In this document: positions 19,087 through 50,116 of the stretch, in pieces
How the letters are laid out: each line of letters starts with the position of its first letter
Numbering within the stretch: position 1 is the stretch's first letter
Made by a program: the position numbers and the translations under genes
The notes under the pieces: model-generated
What the model was told of the DNA's origin: nothing
Database searches by the model: none
Seen by the model: the letters and a program-made list of their open reading frames with translations, nothing else
Origin: Halorussus gelatinilyticus
Lineage (GTDB): Archaea; Halobacteriota; Halobacteria; Halobacteriales; Haladaptataceae
Direction: 5' to 3'
Length of the DNA: 64,000 nt
Assembly (NCBI RefSeq): GCF_023238445.1
Contig: NZ_CP096658.1
Location: 310,001-374,000 of the forward strand

Positions 19087-20556
19087 ATGACCGGTCCCTC
19101 CGACTCGCACGATTCGACGCGGCGCAGGTTCCTCGCGGCCGGCGGTCTCCTCGCCGGGACCGCCGGACTCGCGGGATGCATCTCGGGCACGGGGTCGAAA
19201 CCGACCGCGACCGAGACGACCGACGACGAACCGGCCGACGGACAGACGGCCGACGGGGAAACGACCGAAGCGGTCGCGGCGGAGTCGCCCGGCGCGGCCG
19301 CGTGGCCGCAGTTCGGCCACGACGCGAGCAACGCCGGGTACGCCCGGTCGGCCAGCGGTCCCGGTGCGGACGCCGCGCTGGCGTGGCGCTTCGACGCAAA
19401 GACGCCGACGATGAACGCCTCGCCCGTGGTCGCGGACGGCACGGTCTACGCGCCGGGGAGCGGAGACCCCGGCTACGTCCACGCCATCGACGCCGAGACC
19501 GGCGAGTCGGTCTGGCGCTTCGAACCGGCCGGCTACGCGAGTTGCGCCCCCGCGGTCGCCGACGGGCGAGTCTACTTCGGGACGTGGAGCAAGAAGTTCT
19601 ACGCGCTGGACGCCGCGACCGGCGAGCAGGTCTGGGCGAGCGACGTGGGCCACCGGTTCGGGTCGTCCTCGCCCGCCGTCTCGGACGGCACCGTCTACGT
19701 CGGGACCGTCGGCGACGGCCCGATGGTGGTCAGCGGCGAGGAGGACGAAGAGAAGTTCGAGTCCTGCGCGGTCCTCGCGCTCGACGCCGAATCCGGCGAC
19801 GAGCGGTGGCGCTACGACGACTTCGGCGAGAAGGAGAACGTCGGTTCGTCCATCGCGGTCGCGGACGGCCGGGTCTACTTCGGCGGCGAGTCGGCGGTGT
19901 ACGCGCTCGACGCCGACTCGGGGTCGGTCGCGTGGTCGCGCGAGGTCGCGACCCACCCCCAGTCGTCGCCGGCCGTGGTGGACGGCACGGTGTACTACGG
20001 CGGGCCGTCCGACGCCGAGGACGGTCCCCCGGCGCGACTGTACGCGCTCGACGCGAAGTCGGGCGAGACGGTCTGGACCGCCGGTATCGACGACACTAGC
20101 CTCCGGACCTCGCCCGCCGTCGCCGACGGGACGGTGTACGTCGCGGCGTCCTCGACGCGCGCCTGTCTGCTCTCCGGCGGCGGGGTGGCGACCACCGAGA
20201 CCGACGACGGCGGGAACGGCACCGACGCCGCGCGGACCGAGGACGGCGACTCGGACTGCTCGGGGACGAACCGCGGGCGACTCTACGCGCTCGACGCGGC
20301 CAGCGGCGAGCGCCGGTGGACCGCCGAGTTCCGAACCGACACGCGCTCGTCGCCCGCCGTCGCCGACGGCACGGTCTACGCCGGCAACGGCGACGGTCTC
20401 TCGGCGGTGACGACCGACGGCGAGAACCTGTGGCGAATCGGCTTCGAGGGGAAGCGCGACGACGGCCCGTACCTCGATTCGTCACCTGCGGTCGCCGGCG
20501 GCCGGGTCTTCGTCGGCGCGTCGGACGGTCGCCTGCGCGCCATCGGAACGAAATAG
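19087..20556 (+). CDS. secreted PQQ-like beta-propeller lipoprotein
   Basis: A 489-residue protein (498 if the ATG at 19060 is used). A Tat signal (STRRRFLAAGG) ends in the lipobox LAGC, so the mature protein should be anchored on the outer face of the membrane through the Cys. An acidic Thr/Asp-rich linker (~35-75) precedes a seven- to eight-bladed propeller made of repeats of the type SSPAVADGTVYVG...LYALDAxSGExxW (BamB/PQQ repeats). One blade carries a ~25-residue acidic insertion (TETDDGGNGTDAARTEDGD). Function unknown; such proteins are common at haloarchaeal surfaces and may bind quinone cofactors or proteins. Confidence 0.88.
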   Translation: MTGPSDSHDSTRRRFLAAGGLLAGTAGLAGCISGTGSKPTATETTDDEPADGQTADGETTEAVAAESPGAAAWPQFGHDASNAGYARSASGPGADAALAWRFDAKTPTMNASPVVADGTVYAPGSGDPGYVHAIDAETGESVWRFEPAGYASCAPAVADGRVYFGTWSKKFYALDAATGEQVWASDVGHRFGSSSPAVSDGTVYVGTVGDGPMVVSGEEDEEKFESCAVLALDAESGDERWRYDDFGEKENVGSSIAVADGRVYFGGESAVYALDADSGSVAWSREVATHPQSSPAVVDGTVYYGGPSDAEDGPPARLYALDAKSGETVWTAGIDDTSLRTSPAVADGTVYVAASSTRACLLSGGGVATTETDDGGNGTDAARTEDGDSDCSGTNRGRLYALDAASGERRWTAEFRTDTRSSPAVADGTVYAGNGDGLSAVTTDGENLWRIGFEGKRDDGPYLDSSPAVAGGRVFVGASDGRLRAIGTK

Positions 20557-20743
20557 CTGTTGGAGACAACGAAATTCGATTCTTTTAACCAACCGTATAT
20601 TTCCCTCCCGGTCGATTCGGTGTCGTCGGACCTCCCGCGCTCGTCGCTCCTCGCGCCGGCCGACGCCCGAACCCGTCGGCGGACAGTTCTTTCAGCAGAG
20701 CGACCATATGAAGGTTTTTCCGGTACAGTGTCGTATCCGTCTT

Positions 20744-23338
20744 ATGAACGAACCGGCGGAGGCTTCAGGGTCGGCGTTCTGGGGTGACGCCGACGACGAG
20801 GAAGCCCTCCGGCGTTATCGGACCCTGTTCGACGGTATCGAGCAGGGGCTGTACCGACTCGATGCCGGCGGCCGATTCGTCGGCGTCAACGACGCGCTTC
20901 TGACGACGACGGGTTACGACCGCGAGGAACTGCTCGGCGAACACGTCGGACTCCTCTTCGACGCCCGCGACCTCGTGGCCGTCGAACGCGAGACCGAGCG
21001 CCGACTCTTCGGCGAGGGCGGAGAGTCGGTCCCGGTGGCGCTCCGGACGGCCGACGGCGACGCGATTCCGGCCAGCGTGTCGGTCTCCGTCCACGTCGAG
21101 GACGACGAGTTCCGCGGCACGACCGGCGTCGTCCGAACGGAGCCGCCCGAGCGCGACTCGGCGGACGGCCCGGCGGCCGTGACAATCCTCGACGCGAGTC
21201 CCGTCGGCGTCGTCGTCCGCGACGCCGACGGCGCGGTCACGCGGGTCAACGACAGAGCCGAGGAACTGCTCGACGTGTCGGTGGGCGAGCGCCCGGCGGA
21301 CGGCGAGGACGAGCGAACGGGGGAGACGGAAGCCGAGCGTCCGGCGGACGAATCCGACCTGGATTCGTCCGTCTCGCAGCGATTCTACGACGAGGAGGGC
21401 CAGCGACTGCCCCCGGACGAACGACCGTTCGCTCGCGCGGCGGCGACCGGTTCGTCGGTCGCCGACCGCCTGCTGCGGGTCGAAGGGCCGGACGGCGAGC
21501 GGCGGTGGCTGTCCGTCGAGGCCGCGCCGGTCGCGTCGGACGGCGGCGACGAACGGGTCGTCACGACTTACGAGGACGTGACCGACCTCAAGGAGCGCGA
21601 GCGCGAACTCGAAAACGAACTCGACGAGATATTCGGGCGCGTGACCGACGCCTTCTACGCGCTCGACGACGAGTGGCGGTTCACCCACGCCAACGACCGC
21701 GCCGAGGAACTCATCGACTACTGGGGCGAGGGGCTGGTCGGCCGGAAGTTCTGGGACGTCTTCGAGTGGGCGACCGACTCGAAACTCGGCGAGGAGTACC
21801 GCGAGGCGATGCGAACGCAGGAACCGGCCTCCTTCGAACTCTACTACCCCGACCCGCTGGAAGCGTGGTACGAGATTCGGGCCTACCCCTCCGAGTCGGG
21901 CCTGTCGGTGTACTTCCGGGACGTGACCGAGCGAAAGCGCCGCGAGCGCGAGTTAGAGGAGTCAGAACGTCGGTATCGCTCTCTCGCGGAGTACTTCCCG
22001 AACGGCATCGTGACGCTGTTCGGTCCCGACTGCGAGTACACGCTGGCGGCGGGCCAAGCGTTCGACTACATCCCGGTCGAACCCGAGGATGTCGAAAACG
22101 AACACTTCCGCGAGGTGTGGGACGAGGCGACCGCCGACGCGCTCGAACCCGCGTTCGAGGCCGCGCTCGACGGCGAGAAGCGGTCGGTCGAGGTGTCCTA
22201 TGCCGGACGCGAGTGGGTCGTCCACACGGTGCCCATCACCGACGAGGGCGGCGACGTGTTCGCCGGGATGACGATGGCTCAAGACGTGACCGAGCAGACG
22301 GAGCGCGAGCGCTACCTGCGGGAGACCAAGTCGCAACTGGAGGCCGCGACGGAGGCGGGCGCGGTCGGCACGTGGGAGTGGCGGATTCCCGAGGACGAGA
22401 TGGTGGTGGGTACGTCGTTCGCCAGAACCTTCGGCGTGAAGCCCGAGGAGGCCATCGAGGGCGTCTCGCTCGACCGATTCATCGAGGCCATCCACGAGGA
22501 CGACCGCGAGCGCGTCGAGCGCCAGATAGCCGAGGCGGTCGAGAGCGGCGAGGAGTACGAGGCCGAGTATCGCGTCTGGGACGACGACGACGAACTCCGC
22601 TGGGTGGTCGCCCGCGGCCACGTCGAGTGCGACGACGAGGGCAACCCCGTCACCTTCCCCGGCGCGCTGACCGACGTGACCGAGCGCAAGGAGCGCGAAC
22701 AGCGCCTCGAACGCCAGAACGAGCGGCTCGAATCGTTCGCCAGCATGCTCGCCCACGAACTCCGCAACCCCGTCACCATCGGCCAGATATACGGCCGACA
22801 ACTCCCGGACGACGAAGCGCCGGAGGCGGTCGAGTACGTCACCGAGGCGTTCGACCGCATCGAGGAGATGATAGACGTGATGCTCGTGCTGACCCGCGGC
22901 CGGGAAGCGGTCGGCGAGTGTAAGGACGTCGTGCTGGCCGATGTGGCCCGCGAGGCGTGGACCGAGGTCGAGTCCCCGGAGACGACGCTCACCGTCGAAG
23001 TTACGGCGGTAATCGAGGCCGACGAGACGTATCTCCGCCACCTGTTCCGGAACCTGTTCGAGAACGCGGTCCAGCACGGCGACGCGACCGAGGTCCGGGT
23101 CGGCGAGACGGAGACGGGTTTCTACGTCGCCGACGACGGAAGCGGGATTCCCGAGGACGAGCGCGCGGCCGTCTTCGAGGCCGGATTCACCACGGCAGCG
23201 GGCGAGGGCGGCACCGGTCTCGGACTCGCCTTCGTCCGGGAACTCGCCGAGGTCTACGGGTGGCGGTGTCGCGCGACCGAGAGCGAGTCGGGCGGCGCGC
23301 GCTTCGAGTTCGAGTACGCGGACGGCGGGCGGGAGTAG
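20744..23338 (+). CDS. multi-PAS sensor histidine kinase
   Basis: An 864-residue cytosolic histidine kinase without membrane helices. About five PAS domains run from residue 25 to ~640; clear ones start at RYRTLFDGIEQGLYRLD, ILDASPVGVVVRD, DEIFGRVTDAFYALD and RYRSLAEYFPNGI, and the last is PAS_3-like (GTWEWRIPEDEMVVG). Short coiled coils with TERKEREQRLE join them. The HisKA phosphorylation site is in ASMLAHELRNP (His ~671), and the HATPase_c N box (NLFENAVQHG), G1 (DDGSGIPE) and G2 (GTGLGLAFV) are intact. The ATG at 20708 overlaps a likely TATA element, so the ATG at 20744 is preferred. No response regulator is adjacent, as usual for haloarchaeal PAS kinases. Confidence 0.92.
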   Translation: MNEPAEASGSAFWGDADDEEALRRYRTLFDGIEQGLYRLDAGGRFVGVNDALLTTTGYDREELLGEHVGLLFDARDLVAVERETERRLFGEGGESVPVALRTADGDAIPASVSVSVHVEDDEFRGTTGVVRTEPPERDSADGPAAVTILDASPVGVVVRDADGAVTRVNDRAEELLDVSVGERPADGEDERTGETEAERPADESDLDSSVSQRFYDEEGQRLPPDERPFARAAATGSSVADRLLRVEGPDGERRWLSVEAAPVASDGGDERVVTTYEDVTDLKERERELENELDEIFGRVTDAFYALDDEWRFTHANDRAEELIDYWGEGLVGRKFWDVFEWATDSKLGEEYREAMRTQEPASFELYYPDPLEAWYEIRAYPSESGLSVYFRDVTERKRRERELEESERRYRSLAEYFPNGIVTLFGPDCEYTLAAGQAFDYIPVEPEDVENEHFREVWDEATADALEPAFEAALDGEKRSVEVSYAGREWVVHTVPITDEGGDVFAGMTMAQDVTEQTERERYLRETKSQLEAATEAGAVGTWEWRIPEDEMVVGTSFARTFGVKPEEAIEGVSLDRFIEAIHEDDRERVERQIAEAVESGEEYEAEYRVWDDDDELRWVVARGHVECDDEGNPVTFPGALTDVTERKEREQRLERQNERLESFASMLAHELRNPVTIGQIYGRQLPDDEAPEAVEYVTEAFDRIEEMIDVMLVLTRGREAVGECKDVVLADVAREAWTEVESPETTLTVEVTAVIEADETYLRHLFRNLFENAVQHGDATEVRVGETETGFYVADDGSGIPEDERAAVFEAGFTTAAGEGGTGLGLAFVRELAEVYGWRCRATESESGGARFEFEYADGGRE

Positions 23339-48172: not shown

Positions 48173-48198
48173 CCGGACGCGTCCGAGGTAGGTTTTTG

Positions 48199-48216
48199 GT
48201 ATGTGTTTAGCCCGAA
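48199..48216 (+). repeat. IS66 left terminal inverted repeat
   Basis: GTATGTGTTTAGCCCGAA, matching the complement of the right end except at positions 4 and 12. Preceded by the target duplication GGTTTTTG (48191-48198). Confidence 0.9.
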
Positions 48217-48294
48217 CTGATTTCGTCACTGTCTCGTAGGAGGCGTTCACTGGGGGCCGTATGCACTGGCAGCAGAGATCTGGTGCGGTTCTGA

Positions 48295-48323
48295 GGGATG
48301 GGCTCCGTGGCGGAGCCCATCCC
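48295..48323 (+). promoter_or_regulatory. 13-bp perfect hairpin upstream of the transposase start
   Basis: GGGATGGGCTCCG (48295-48307) and CGGAGCCCATCCC (48311-48323) form a perfect 13-bp stem with a TGG loop, 36 bases before the GTG start. Such a structure in the leader could stop transcription entering from outside or control translation. A Shine-Dalgarno sequence GGGAGGTG follows at 48345-48352. Confidence 0.8.
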
Positions 48324-48358
48324 GGTGGCTCTGCTGTCCTCGCCGGGAGGTGGGCTCT

Positions 48359-49816
48359 GTGACCGGTGACGATCTCACCAAAGACGAGCTGCTCTCTCGG
48401 TTTCTCCAGCTTGAGCAACGAGTCGAAGAGCTCGAGCAGGAGAACAAGCGGAAGGATGAGAAAATCGACCAACTGCAAGAGCAACTTGACCAGAAGGACG
48501 AGCGGATAGAGGAGCTCGAAACACGCCTTCGCAAGTACGAGAATCCACACACGCCGCCGAGCAAGCGACGGTCGGCGACCGACGAGTCGCCGACCGCGCA
48601 AGACGACGAGGACGATGATGTCCGAACTGACGGCGGAACGCCAGGCCGGAACGAAGGACACGACCCAGAGTGGCGGACAGTAGCTGACCCAGACGAGGTC
48701 GTCGAGGTCACCTGTGAGTGCTGTCCCGAGTGTGGCGAACACTTCGACGAGTCGGCGGGCGTCAGCCCCCGACTCGTCGAGGAGATTCCTGATCCACAGC
48801 CGCCCGAAATCACCCAGTACAACCGCCACCACTACGGGTGTGACTCCTGTGGAACACAGACCGTTGCCTCTCACCCCGACTGCCCCGGTGAGGGGCAGTT
48901 CGGGGTGAACGTCATCGCCCAAGCCGCGCTGTCCCGGTACGATCATCGACTCCCCTACCGGAAAATCGCTGATCGTTTCGACCAACTGCACGGATTGGAA
49001 CTCTCGGGCGCGTCTGCGTGGCACGCGACCGAGCGCGCTGCGCGCGCCGGTCGCTGTGAGTACGAGCAGATTCGCAGACAGATTCAGGAGGCTGAGATCG
49101 TCCACGTTGATGAAACCGGCATCAAGCGTGACGGTGACCAAGCGTGGATCTGGACGTTTCGGACAGACGAGCACACGCTGTATGCCGTCAGAGAGAGTCG
49201 TGGGAGTGATGTTCCCGCGGAAGTCCTCGGCGAGGACTTCGCGGGAACGATCGTCTGTGATGGCTGGACGGCGTATCCAGCGTTCAGCAGTACCCTCCAA
49301 CGGTGCTGGGCACACATTCTCCGCGAAGCTGAAGATGCAGCTGAGGATTACGAGGACGCAAAGCCGATTTACCGGACGCTCAGGCAGATGTACGTCGGTC
49401 TCCAGGCCTGGCTGGAGACCGACCCGAGTACGCGTGAGCGCGCACAGATGCACCGATCGAGCCAGAACGGGCTCAGATCGCTCGCTGAGCGATCAGTAGC
49501 CGACGAACCAGTGGCAACACTGCTCGGAAAGATCGAAGGCGGGATCGATCACTGGCTCACCTTCGTCGGTGAGCCAGCGGTCTCACCGACGAACAACGCT
49601 GCCGAGAACGCGCTTCGTGAGCCAGTCGTTCTTCGGAAAATCATCGGCACGCTCCGCAACGACCGCGGGATGTTCGTTCATGAGACGTTGCTGTCCCTGC
49701 TGGCGACGTGGCGCCAGCAGGGACGGAATCCCTACGAGGAACTCAAGCGAGTCGTCAAAAGCAACGAGATGGTTTCCCGAACTCACGCCGTACCTGCCGT
49801 TGAGCCTTCGGGGTAA
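48359..49816 (+). CDS. IS66-family transposase (TnpC-like)
   Basis: A 485-residue DDE transposase. An N-terminal leucine-zipper-like coiled coil (~10-62, EQRVEELEQENKRKDEKIDQ and on) precedes a zinc-binding region (ECCPECGEHF and CDSCG), then the catalytic core: Asp in HVDETGIKRDG, Asp in IVCDGWTAYPAF and Glu in NNAAENALREP. The GTG at 48359 is chosen because GGGAGGTG (48345-48352) is correctly spaced; a GTG at 48350 overlaps that site. The stop codon TAA (49814-49816) lies inside the right terminal repeat. The coding sequence contains many hairpins: 48569-48596, 48744-48780, 48871-48908, 49025-49054, 49103-49130, 49211-49248, 49394-49423, 49476-49494, 49552-49591 and 49693-49724. Confidence 0.95.
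   Translation: MTGDDLTKDELLSRFLQLEQRVEELEQENKRKDEKIDQLQEQLDQKDERIEELETRLRKYENPHTPPSKRRSATDESPTAQDDEDDDVRTDGGTPGRNEGHDPEWRTVADPDEVVEVTCECCPECGEHFDESAGVSPRLVEEIPDPQPPEITQYNRHHYGCDSCGTQTVASHPDCPGEGQFGVNVIAQAALSRYDHRLPYRKIADRFDQLHGLELSGASAWHATERAARAGRCEYEQIRRQIQEAEIVHVDETGIKRDGDQAWIWTFRTDEHTLYAVRESRGSDVPAEVLGEDFAGTIVCDGWTAYPAFSSTLQRCWAHILREAEDAAEDYEDAKPIYRTLRQMYVGLQAWLETDPSTRERAQMHRSSQNGLRSLAERSVADEPVATLLGKIEGGIDHWLTFVGEPAVSPTNNAAENALREPVVLRKIIGTLRNDRGMFVHETLLSLLATWRQQGRNPYEELKRVVKSNEMVSRTHAVPAVEPSG
49552..49591 (+). repeat. two overlapping, mutually exclusive 10-bp hairpins inside the transposase gene
   Basis: Hairpin A pairs CTGGCTCACC (49552-49561) with GGTGAGCCAG (49568-49577). Hairpin B pairs CGTCGGTGAG (49564-49573) with CTCACCGACG (49582-49591). 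Both stems are perfect and share GGTGAG (49568-49573), so only one can form at a time, as in attenuators. Confidence 0.8.
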
Positions 49817-49824
49817 ACACGTAC
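49807..49824 (-). repeat. IS66 right terminal inverted repeat
   Basis: Reads GTACGTGTTTACCCCGAA on the minus strand and pairs with the left end at 16 of 18 positions. Followed by the second copy of GGTTTTTG (49825-49832). It overlaps the last codons and the stop of the transposase. Confidence 0.9.
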
Positions 49825-49855
49825 GGTTTTTGGAATCGCGGCCACTCTGTCGTTC

Positions 49856-50116
49856 ATGAGCAAGACGCCCTTCCGCGAGCGGATGTATCCCTGCGCGCGG
49901 TGCAACCGGGACGTGCGCGTCGAGTCGCTGTTGCACCACTTCGCCGCGATGCACGACGAGCGACTCGTCACCGCCAACCGCGACGGGACCGACGCCTGCG
50001 CGCTCTGCGGGATGGAACTGCCGGGCGACGACGAGAACAACGCGTGGAAACTCCGCGTGCGCCACTTCCGGGAGCATCACGGCAAGCGACTGCTCGATAC
50101 GGACGCGCTTCGGTGA
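49856..50116 (+). CDS. two-zinc-finger small protein
   Basis: An 86-residue protein with two C2H2-like fingers: CARCNRDVRVESLLHHFAAMH and CALCGMELPGDDENNAWK with a late HFREHH. Both are longer than classical fingers but keep Cys-x2-Cys and His-x3/4-His spacing. A DNA, RNA or protein binding role is possible. The IS66 element ends 31 bases upstream, and the T-rich GGTTTTTGG copy next to it lies ~27 bases before the ATG, where a TATA box would be. The insertion may therefore have changed or cut off its promoter. Confidence 0.75.
   Translation: MSKTPFRERMYPCARCNRDVRVESLLHHFAAMHDERLVTANRDGTDACALCGMELPGDDENNAWKLRVRHFREHHGKRLLDTDALR

Follow-up and report, generated by a model that had tools for sequence, protein, structure and literature searches.

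Conserved chains of perfect hairpins within the codons of haloarchaeal transposase genes

The transposase gene of an insertion sequence (IS) in the haloarchaeon Halorussus gelatinilyticus is written in codons that pair with one another, so that the element forms a chain of mostly perfect hairpins, which recur at the same places in related elements, change by compensatory substitution and relax in dead copies. Nine conserved hairpins begin at positions 48295, 48569, 48744, 48872, 49025, 49211, 49394, 49547 and 49693 of the window (here, the whole stretch of 64,000 nucleotides that was analyzed), and comparable chains are found in the transposase genes of unrelated IS families. The sequence comparisons described below lead us to favor, with a probability of roughly 0.45, the view that the stems work mainly at the level of the transcript, where they would form an inbuilt brake on transposase expression.

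An intact IS66 element with a single gene

Positions 48199–49824 of the forward strand comprise an intact, 1626-bp IS of the IS66 family, ISH10/ISNpe25-like and present in one copy in its 3.67-Mb haloarchaeal genome. The transposase contains the DDE_Tnp_IS66 domain (PF03050, residues 182–441, E=8e-44). The nearest named relatives, ISNpe25 (87%) and ISH10 (81%), are haloarchaeal IS66 elements of the same type, with transposases 81–87% identical, and the copy in the window is a new member of this group. The element is flanked by an 8-bp target-site duplication, with GGTTTTTG at 48191–48198 on the left and GGTTTTTG again at 49825–49832 on the right, and is bounded by imperfect 18-bp terminal inverted repeats, of which the left one (GTATGTGTTTAGCCCGAA, 48199–48216, forward strand) agrees with the right one (49807–49824, reverse strand), taken in reverse complement, at 16 of 18 positions. 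Both ends start with GTA (GTATGTG and GTACGTG), as is usual in the IS66 family. In a congener (genome G172), the site that matches the insertion point is empty and uninterrupted.

The transposase coding sequence (48359–49816, forward strand) is likely to begin with the GTG at 48359, judging from its spacing to a Shine–Dalgarno-like GGAGGTG (48346–48352, forward strand); the longest frame runs from 48350. This single open reading frame (ORF) fills the element, which has neither of the accessory genes (tnpA and tnpB) found in canonical IS66 elements and fits the single-ORF IS66 subgroup, whose members are not known to carry them. A small gene with CxxC motifs (49856–50116) starts about 30 bp downstream of the element (gap 49825–49856), and the insertion probably separates this gene from its promoter.

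Hairpins of the element and their excess over expectation

The leader of the element holds one stable hairpin and the coding sequence about eight, all given here on the forward strand. The leader hairpin, S0 (48295–48323), is a perfect 13-bp stem with a loop of 3 nt, extended by outer arms at about 48268–48279 and 48328–48339. Together, S0 and the outer arms finish ~7 nt upstream of the Shine–Dalgarno-like motif at 48346; the leader segment that was folded, which stopped short of this motif, has a predicted energy of −43.8 kcal/mol. Within the coding sequence, S1 (48569–48596), S5 (49394–49423) and S8 (49693–49724) are perfect stems of 11, 12 and 13 bp, respectively, each with a loop of 6 nt. 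S2 (48744–48780) consists of 12 bp followed by a mismatch and 2 bp, S3 (48872–48907) and S3b (49025–49054) of 8 + 7 and 7 + 6 bp, respectively, with one bulge each, S4 (49211–49248) of about 17 bp with one bulge, and S7 (49547–49582) of 4 bp, a mismatch and 10 bp with a loop of 6 nt; in some copies, there is an alternative, overlapping 12-bp stem at 49562–49593. The preliminary description of this DNA had listed eleven hairpins, all of which were recovered at the same positions, and nine of these are conserved. The remaining two, at 49103–49130 (−9 kcal/mol) and 49476–49494 (8 bp), are weak, are not conserved in relatives and are probably due to chance.

A scan for perfect Watson–Crick arms of at least 8 bp with loops of 1–12 nt gives 8 matches within 48199–49824. 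The shuffling comparison proposed in the preliminary description was run on the ORF, with both the protein and the codon usage kept: the ORF contains 7, 5 and 3 stems of at least 8, 10 and 12 bp, respectively, compared with means of 0.55, 0.08 and 0.02 (maxima 4, 2 and 1) in 1,000 synonymous shuffles. The RNAfold MFE of the sense ORF is −673.6 versus −579.8 ± 10.7 in 60 synonymous shuffles (z = −8.8), and that of the antisense strand deviates to z = −8.4, again relative to 60 synonymous shuffles. The contrast with ordinary genes that had been noticed at the outset holds as well: none of the 303 other ORFs taken from the host genome (320 kb) contains three or more stems of at least 10 bp, and their stem rate is 0.128 per kb compared with ~3.4 per kb in the transposase ORF. 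Neither the shuffled controls nor the other ORFs thus show the stem numbers that, according to the preliminary description, would have refuted the observation. Elsewhere in the window, two perfect stems of at least 10 bp (11 bp or longer) are found together in a single stretch, 20525–21991. That the stems arose by chance, or as a by-product of the composition or codon bias of high-GC genomes, is an explanation with a negligible probability, given that they are absent from the synonymous shuffles, which rule out composition and codon bias as the source, as well as from host ORFs and from high-GC bacterial transposases.

Conservation and covariation

Relatives at 70–87% identity carry the same stems in the same places. 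Perfect stems of at least 10 bp are present in nearly every haloarchaeal copy found and in all intact family members tested, with four to six such stems usually seen in full-length haloarchaeal copies and fewer in dead copies and in strongly degraded or truncated fragments. In more distant relatives, S1 gives way to another stem of 12–16 bp that is differently placed, and the haloarchaeal sister group, with 42% identity to the window protein, has its own set of six or seven stems, some of which are located elsewhere.

The stems constrain the codons in which they lie. At codons for conserved amino acids, third positions are 97.5% conserved within stems versus 72.4% elsewhere (p = 8e-26), and parsimony reconstruction across 34 intact copies yields 0.84 third-position changes per site in the stems versus 5.43 outside, a 6.5-fold slower rate. 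Among the same 34 copies, seven swaps of one Watson–Crick pair for another between the arms were detected. In the S5 pair 49398–49419, G-C turned into C-G through changes at the second codon position in each arm, so that Gly/Thr changed to Ala/Ser together; this swap occurred independently at least three times, and none of the 31 sequences first compared is mispaired at this point. Of the 34 intact copies, 30 retain S0 ahead of the start; two compensatory swaps of pairs have occurred in it, and its variants GGGATGGGCTCC, GGGATGGTCTCC and GGGACGGTCTCC nearly always come with the matching opposite arm. The impression that the codons are chosen to pair, recorded in the first inspection of the sequence, is thus borne out by a ~60-fold stem excess of the ORF over synonymous shuffles, by the nearly frozen third positions in the stems and by compensatory changes on both sides.

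The substitutions that disrupt Watson–Crick pairs are informative with regard to the nature of the selected object. Changes from Watson–Crick pairs to G·U and to A·C are found at a ratio of 13:14 in intact copies and 39:41 in all copies, where the neutral expectation is ~54:46, and the corresponding variant types in other IS families number 26:21. G·U being no commoner than A·C, the wobble tolerance expected of selection on the sense-strand RNA is not seen in these sets. Selection for folding of the sense RNA alone should tolerate G·U, so that what is selected may be the palindrome as such, either in the sense and antisense RNA alike or at the level of DNA.

Selection or mutation

Perfect pairing and compensatory double changes could, in principle, result from a mutational process, namely, template switching or quasipalindrome correction, that builds and maintains perfect stems in the absence of selection, and template switching was among the meanings suggested in the preliminary description. 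The copy from Halorussus marinus (L013:1501–2946) also can be taken to favor this explanation: unlike in every other copy, the inner part of its S3 is inverted, which converts HPDCPDEGQFG to HPELPLIGAVG and changes several conserved residues in an otherwise intact gene, indicating that strand exchange or switching does happen at stem sites. However, correction of one arm by the other spreads or reverts mutations, and should not make third positions 6.5-fold slower, and it would have kept dead copies perfect, whereas clearly dead copies lose their stems at the ordinary rate. On terminal branches, stems change at 0.25 times the rate of other sites in intact copies, where stem substitution is strongly suppressed, compared with 0.59 in 27 non-intact copies, a set that includes some recently broken ones and some cut by contig ends, and 0.95–1.54 in five strongly decayed copies (L106, L097, L103, L108 and L025), with some noise possible from misalignment. 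Furthermore, host, plasmid and virus genes in similar cells lack the stems. Because the stems decay in dead copies, we infer that they are maintained by selection rather than by template switching, which as a maintaining force is largely refuted by this decay; a purely mutational origin and upkeep of the stems is very improbable.

Distribution among IS families and lineages

The survey drew on 1.2 Mb of DNA from haloarchaea and a further 0.36 Mb from Methanohalobium. In the haloarchaeal scan, no clusters of three or more stems were found in 400 kb of the genome to which the window belongs, and about twenty were found in 400 kb of an IS-rich plasmid, nearly all of them in transposase genes of unrelated families. 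The stem rate is 3.87 per kb in IS110 genes (versus 0.105 in synonymous shuffles) and 2.50 per kb in the DDE_Tnp_1 families, which include ISH8/IS4-like, IS5-like and ISH1-like elements (versus 0.048 in synonymous shuffles). For TnpB genes, the rate is 0.137 per kb versus 0.020 in synonymous shuffles, and for the Y1 TnpA of IS200/IS605, 0.24 versus 0.065 per kb in shuffled sequences, with two stems in 8.2 kb. In an annotated segment of pNRC100, ISH8B has 4 stems, whereas ISH10, which carries the same stems as the element in the window, ISH27-2 and ISH27-3 have 5 each; the 37 other genes of the segment have one stem in total. In ISH27, which belongs to the ISH3 family, the first 14-bp stem begins at about nucleotide 52 of the coding sequence. 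Conserved stems with frozen third positions are present also in the IS66 group B, ISH8-like, IS5-like and ISH1-like sets; in the small and divergent IS110 set, third positions in the stems do not differ from those elsewhere.

Only DDE/DEDD-type transposases show the feature, which occurs in several IS families that are not related to one another. A trait linked to the transposition chemistry of IS66 alone is ruled out by the stems of IS110, IS4, ISH3 and IS5-like elements, and a general property of haloarchaeal mobile DNA is ruled out by the plasmid genes, TnpA, TnpB and the virus HF2, which has one stem in 15 kb. A search of viral contigs for relatives of the element found none. In Halobacterium salinarum (G018), a 679-aa ORF outside known IS elements (L147:10860–12897), possibly not a real frame, has three stems of at least 10 bp.

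IS66 transposase homologues from other archaea of the phylum, including methanogens, lack the stems (19 genes, 0.042 per kb), and the DDE_Tnp_1 genes of these archaea have 0.22 stems per kb, the main exception being Methanohalobium evestigatum. In this extreme halophile, an IS transposase gene with 38% GC (L306, G411:C1, about 170847) has three 10-bp stems versus 0 expected; most of the other methanogen IS genes tested have zero stems. In a small bacterial sample, no stem of at least 10 bp was found in IS30, IS5 and IS1 of E. coli, in IS21 and ISNCY of Sinorhizobium, in one IS630 gene of Thermus or in IS66 of Aeromonas, Acidiphilium, Streptomyces, Nostoc and Planctomyces, and the same is true of two transposase genes of the halophilic bacterium Salinibacter. 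In this small sample, Deinococcus transposase genes from four families have ~1.7 stems per kb versus 0.05, and a Deinococcus IS66 homologue, 62% identical, has six stems. Perfect coding hairpins were observed on Deinococcus plasmids (L323, L324 and L366–L368) in IS6, IS3, IS66 and IS630 transposase genes. The loops are mostly 1–3 nt long in Deinococcus, loops of 5–7 nt are common in haloarchaea, and the most common loop length among 181 unique stems is 6 nt.

A general effect of salt was considered as well, but Salinibacter has 0 stems in two genes, and the single Methanohalobium evestigatum gene is too little to decide. An effect of polyploidy is only an idea: Deinococcus has stems and Thermus, also polyploid, has none in its one IS630 gene. 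A tentative generalization, less likely than not, is that nearly all haloarchaeal and many Deinococcus DDE/DEDD transposase genes carry an independently evolved chain of perfect, both-strand codon hairpins. If so, these mobile genes would share a convergent, lineage-wide structural code, operating either in the two RNA strands or in DNA, as a response to some pressure specific to polyploid, stress-resistant cells.

What the stems may do

The stem excess, the frozen third positions, the compensatory changes, the leader hairpin just upstream of the Shine–Dalgarno motif, the relaxation in dead copies and the contrast between transposase and other genes on pNRC100 all count in favor of a brake on transposase expression. 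Under this scenario, the stems would fold in the high-salt cytoplasm and hinder ribosomes, perhaps also exposing or protecting sites of processing. Although well transcribed, the transposase mRNA would then yield almost no protein, and the polyploid host would be spared damage by the element; RNA chaperones, SmAP1 for instance, could melt the stems and thereby release transposition. The need for perfect Watson–Crick pairing suggests that the antisense RNAs transcribed across haloarchaeal transposase genes would have to form the stems, too. The idea that mRNA folding limits translation, one of the possibilities raised in the preliminary description, agrees with the published proteomics of H. 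salinarum, where mobilome mRNA is abundant and proteins were detected for 4 of 33, three of these being TnpB (PMC10134880), an IS gene type without stems in the present survey. In the same organism, SmAP1 binds 24 of the 33 mobilome mRNAs, its deletion reduces the transposition of IS4 and ISH3, with the authors noting its hairpin-melting potential, and Ribo-seq reads from one ISH3 mRNA accumulate at its 5′ end (PMC10134880); representatives of the IS4 and ISH3 families both carry strong coding stems, and in the ISH3-family gene ISH27 the first of them lies early in the coding sequence, at about nucleotide 52. In addition, 58 antisense RNAs overlap transposase genes in H. salinarum (PMC6523106). 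The ties between the stems and these data are correlative, and the authors explain the repression by SmAP1 and asRNA rather than by hairpins in coding sequences (PMC10134880). Against a brake that works through the sense RNA is the observation that changes to G·U are no commoner than those to A·C, and the stemless Y1 transposase of IS200/IS605 speaks against a brake as well.

The equal rarity of G·U and A·C, that is, the symmetry of the strands, and the perfection of the palindromes would be accounted for if the latter act as DNA, in the form of cruciforms, single-strand hairpins or substrates for the recombination or replication proteins of the host. Acting in this way, they might influence, for example, the element's transposition, its repair or its copy control inside polyploid cells, and the mRNA structure would be a by-product. 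The L013 inversion shows that DNA strands can switch at stem sites, the stems are missing in IS200/IS605, which move as single-stranded DNA, and they are present in Deinococcus, another polyploid, radiation-resistant lineage. We consider such a role in DNA less likely than the brake: arms of 10–14 bp are short for cruciform extrusion, the feature is common to IS families that differ in their transposition chemistry, Thermus, also polyploid, lacks stems in one IS630 gene, and the correlation with undetected protein would be left unexplained. Slightly less probable again is that the stems mainly govern the interaction between sense and antisense RNA, either resisting duplex formation and so shielding the element from outside antisense transcription, as had also been suggested initially, or engaging in kissing loops, as known from classical antisense control. 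Both strands would then need structure, which matches the lack of wobble pairs, and the antisense MFE is as extreme as the sense one; asRNAs frequently overlap transposase genes in H. salinarum (PMC6523106), and 6 nt is the favorite loop size. However, the coverage of the stems by asRNA is an assumption, the short loops of Deinococcus do not conform to this picture and loops are not conserved. The brake, the role in DNA and the antisense interaction partly overlap as explanations.

Relation to known systems and implications

Repressive leader hairpins on transposases are known, and in the foldback inhibition of IS10 and IS50, such a hairpin hides the ribosome site in read-through mRNA. The element described here is similar in that a structured transposase message is proposed to lower translation and S0 lies just upstream of the Shine–Dalgarno motif, but unlike IS10 and IS50, with their one leader hairpin, it has eight more in the coding sequence, which are conserved at the codon level and have counterparts in many IS families. 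In some RNA viruses, genome-scale ordered RNA structure is attained by pervasive folding via synonymous codons. The haloarchaeal stems likewise impose folding through synonymous codons, but they belong to DNA elements, are discrete and perfect, and do not tolerate wobble. In ISPpu9 (PMC8450116) and IS200 (cited in PMC10134880), mRNA structure combined with antisense or small RNA keeps transposase low, and there the structure is in the 5′UTR of one IS, whereas the haloarchaeal stems run along the ORF and are lineage-wide. REP/BIME sequences are also short palindromes linked to transposases, but they are extragenic and share their sequence, whereas the haloarchaeal stems lie within genes and differ in sequence from one another. 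To our knowledge, a conserved hairpin chain that is written into transposase codons in many unrelated families, and this throughout an entire class, has not been known before, and a literature search, with most subscription papers beyond its reach, found no earlier report of coding hairpins in ISH10-type or other transposases.

These findings show strong and repeated selection on nucleic acid structure inside coding genes, sufficient to steer the choice of amino acids, among insertion sequences that are unrelated to one another, both within one archaeal class and in a bacterial genus. They offer a sequence-based explanation for abundant haloarchaeal transposase mRNA without protein and make the role of SmAP1 in transposition testable by simple synonymous rewrites, and the perfect stems provide a sequence test that distinguishes a functional IS copy from a dead one. 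More generally, the hairpin chain points to a previously unreported way of holding jumping genes in check.
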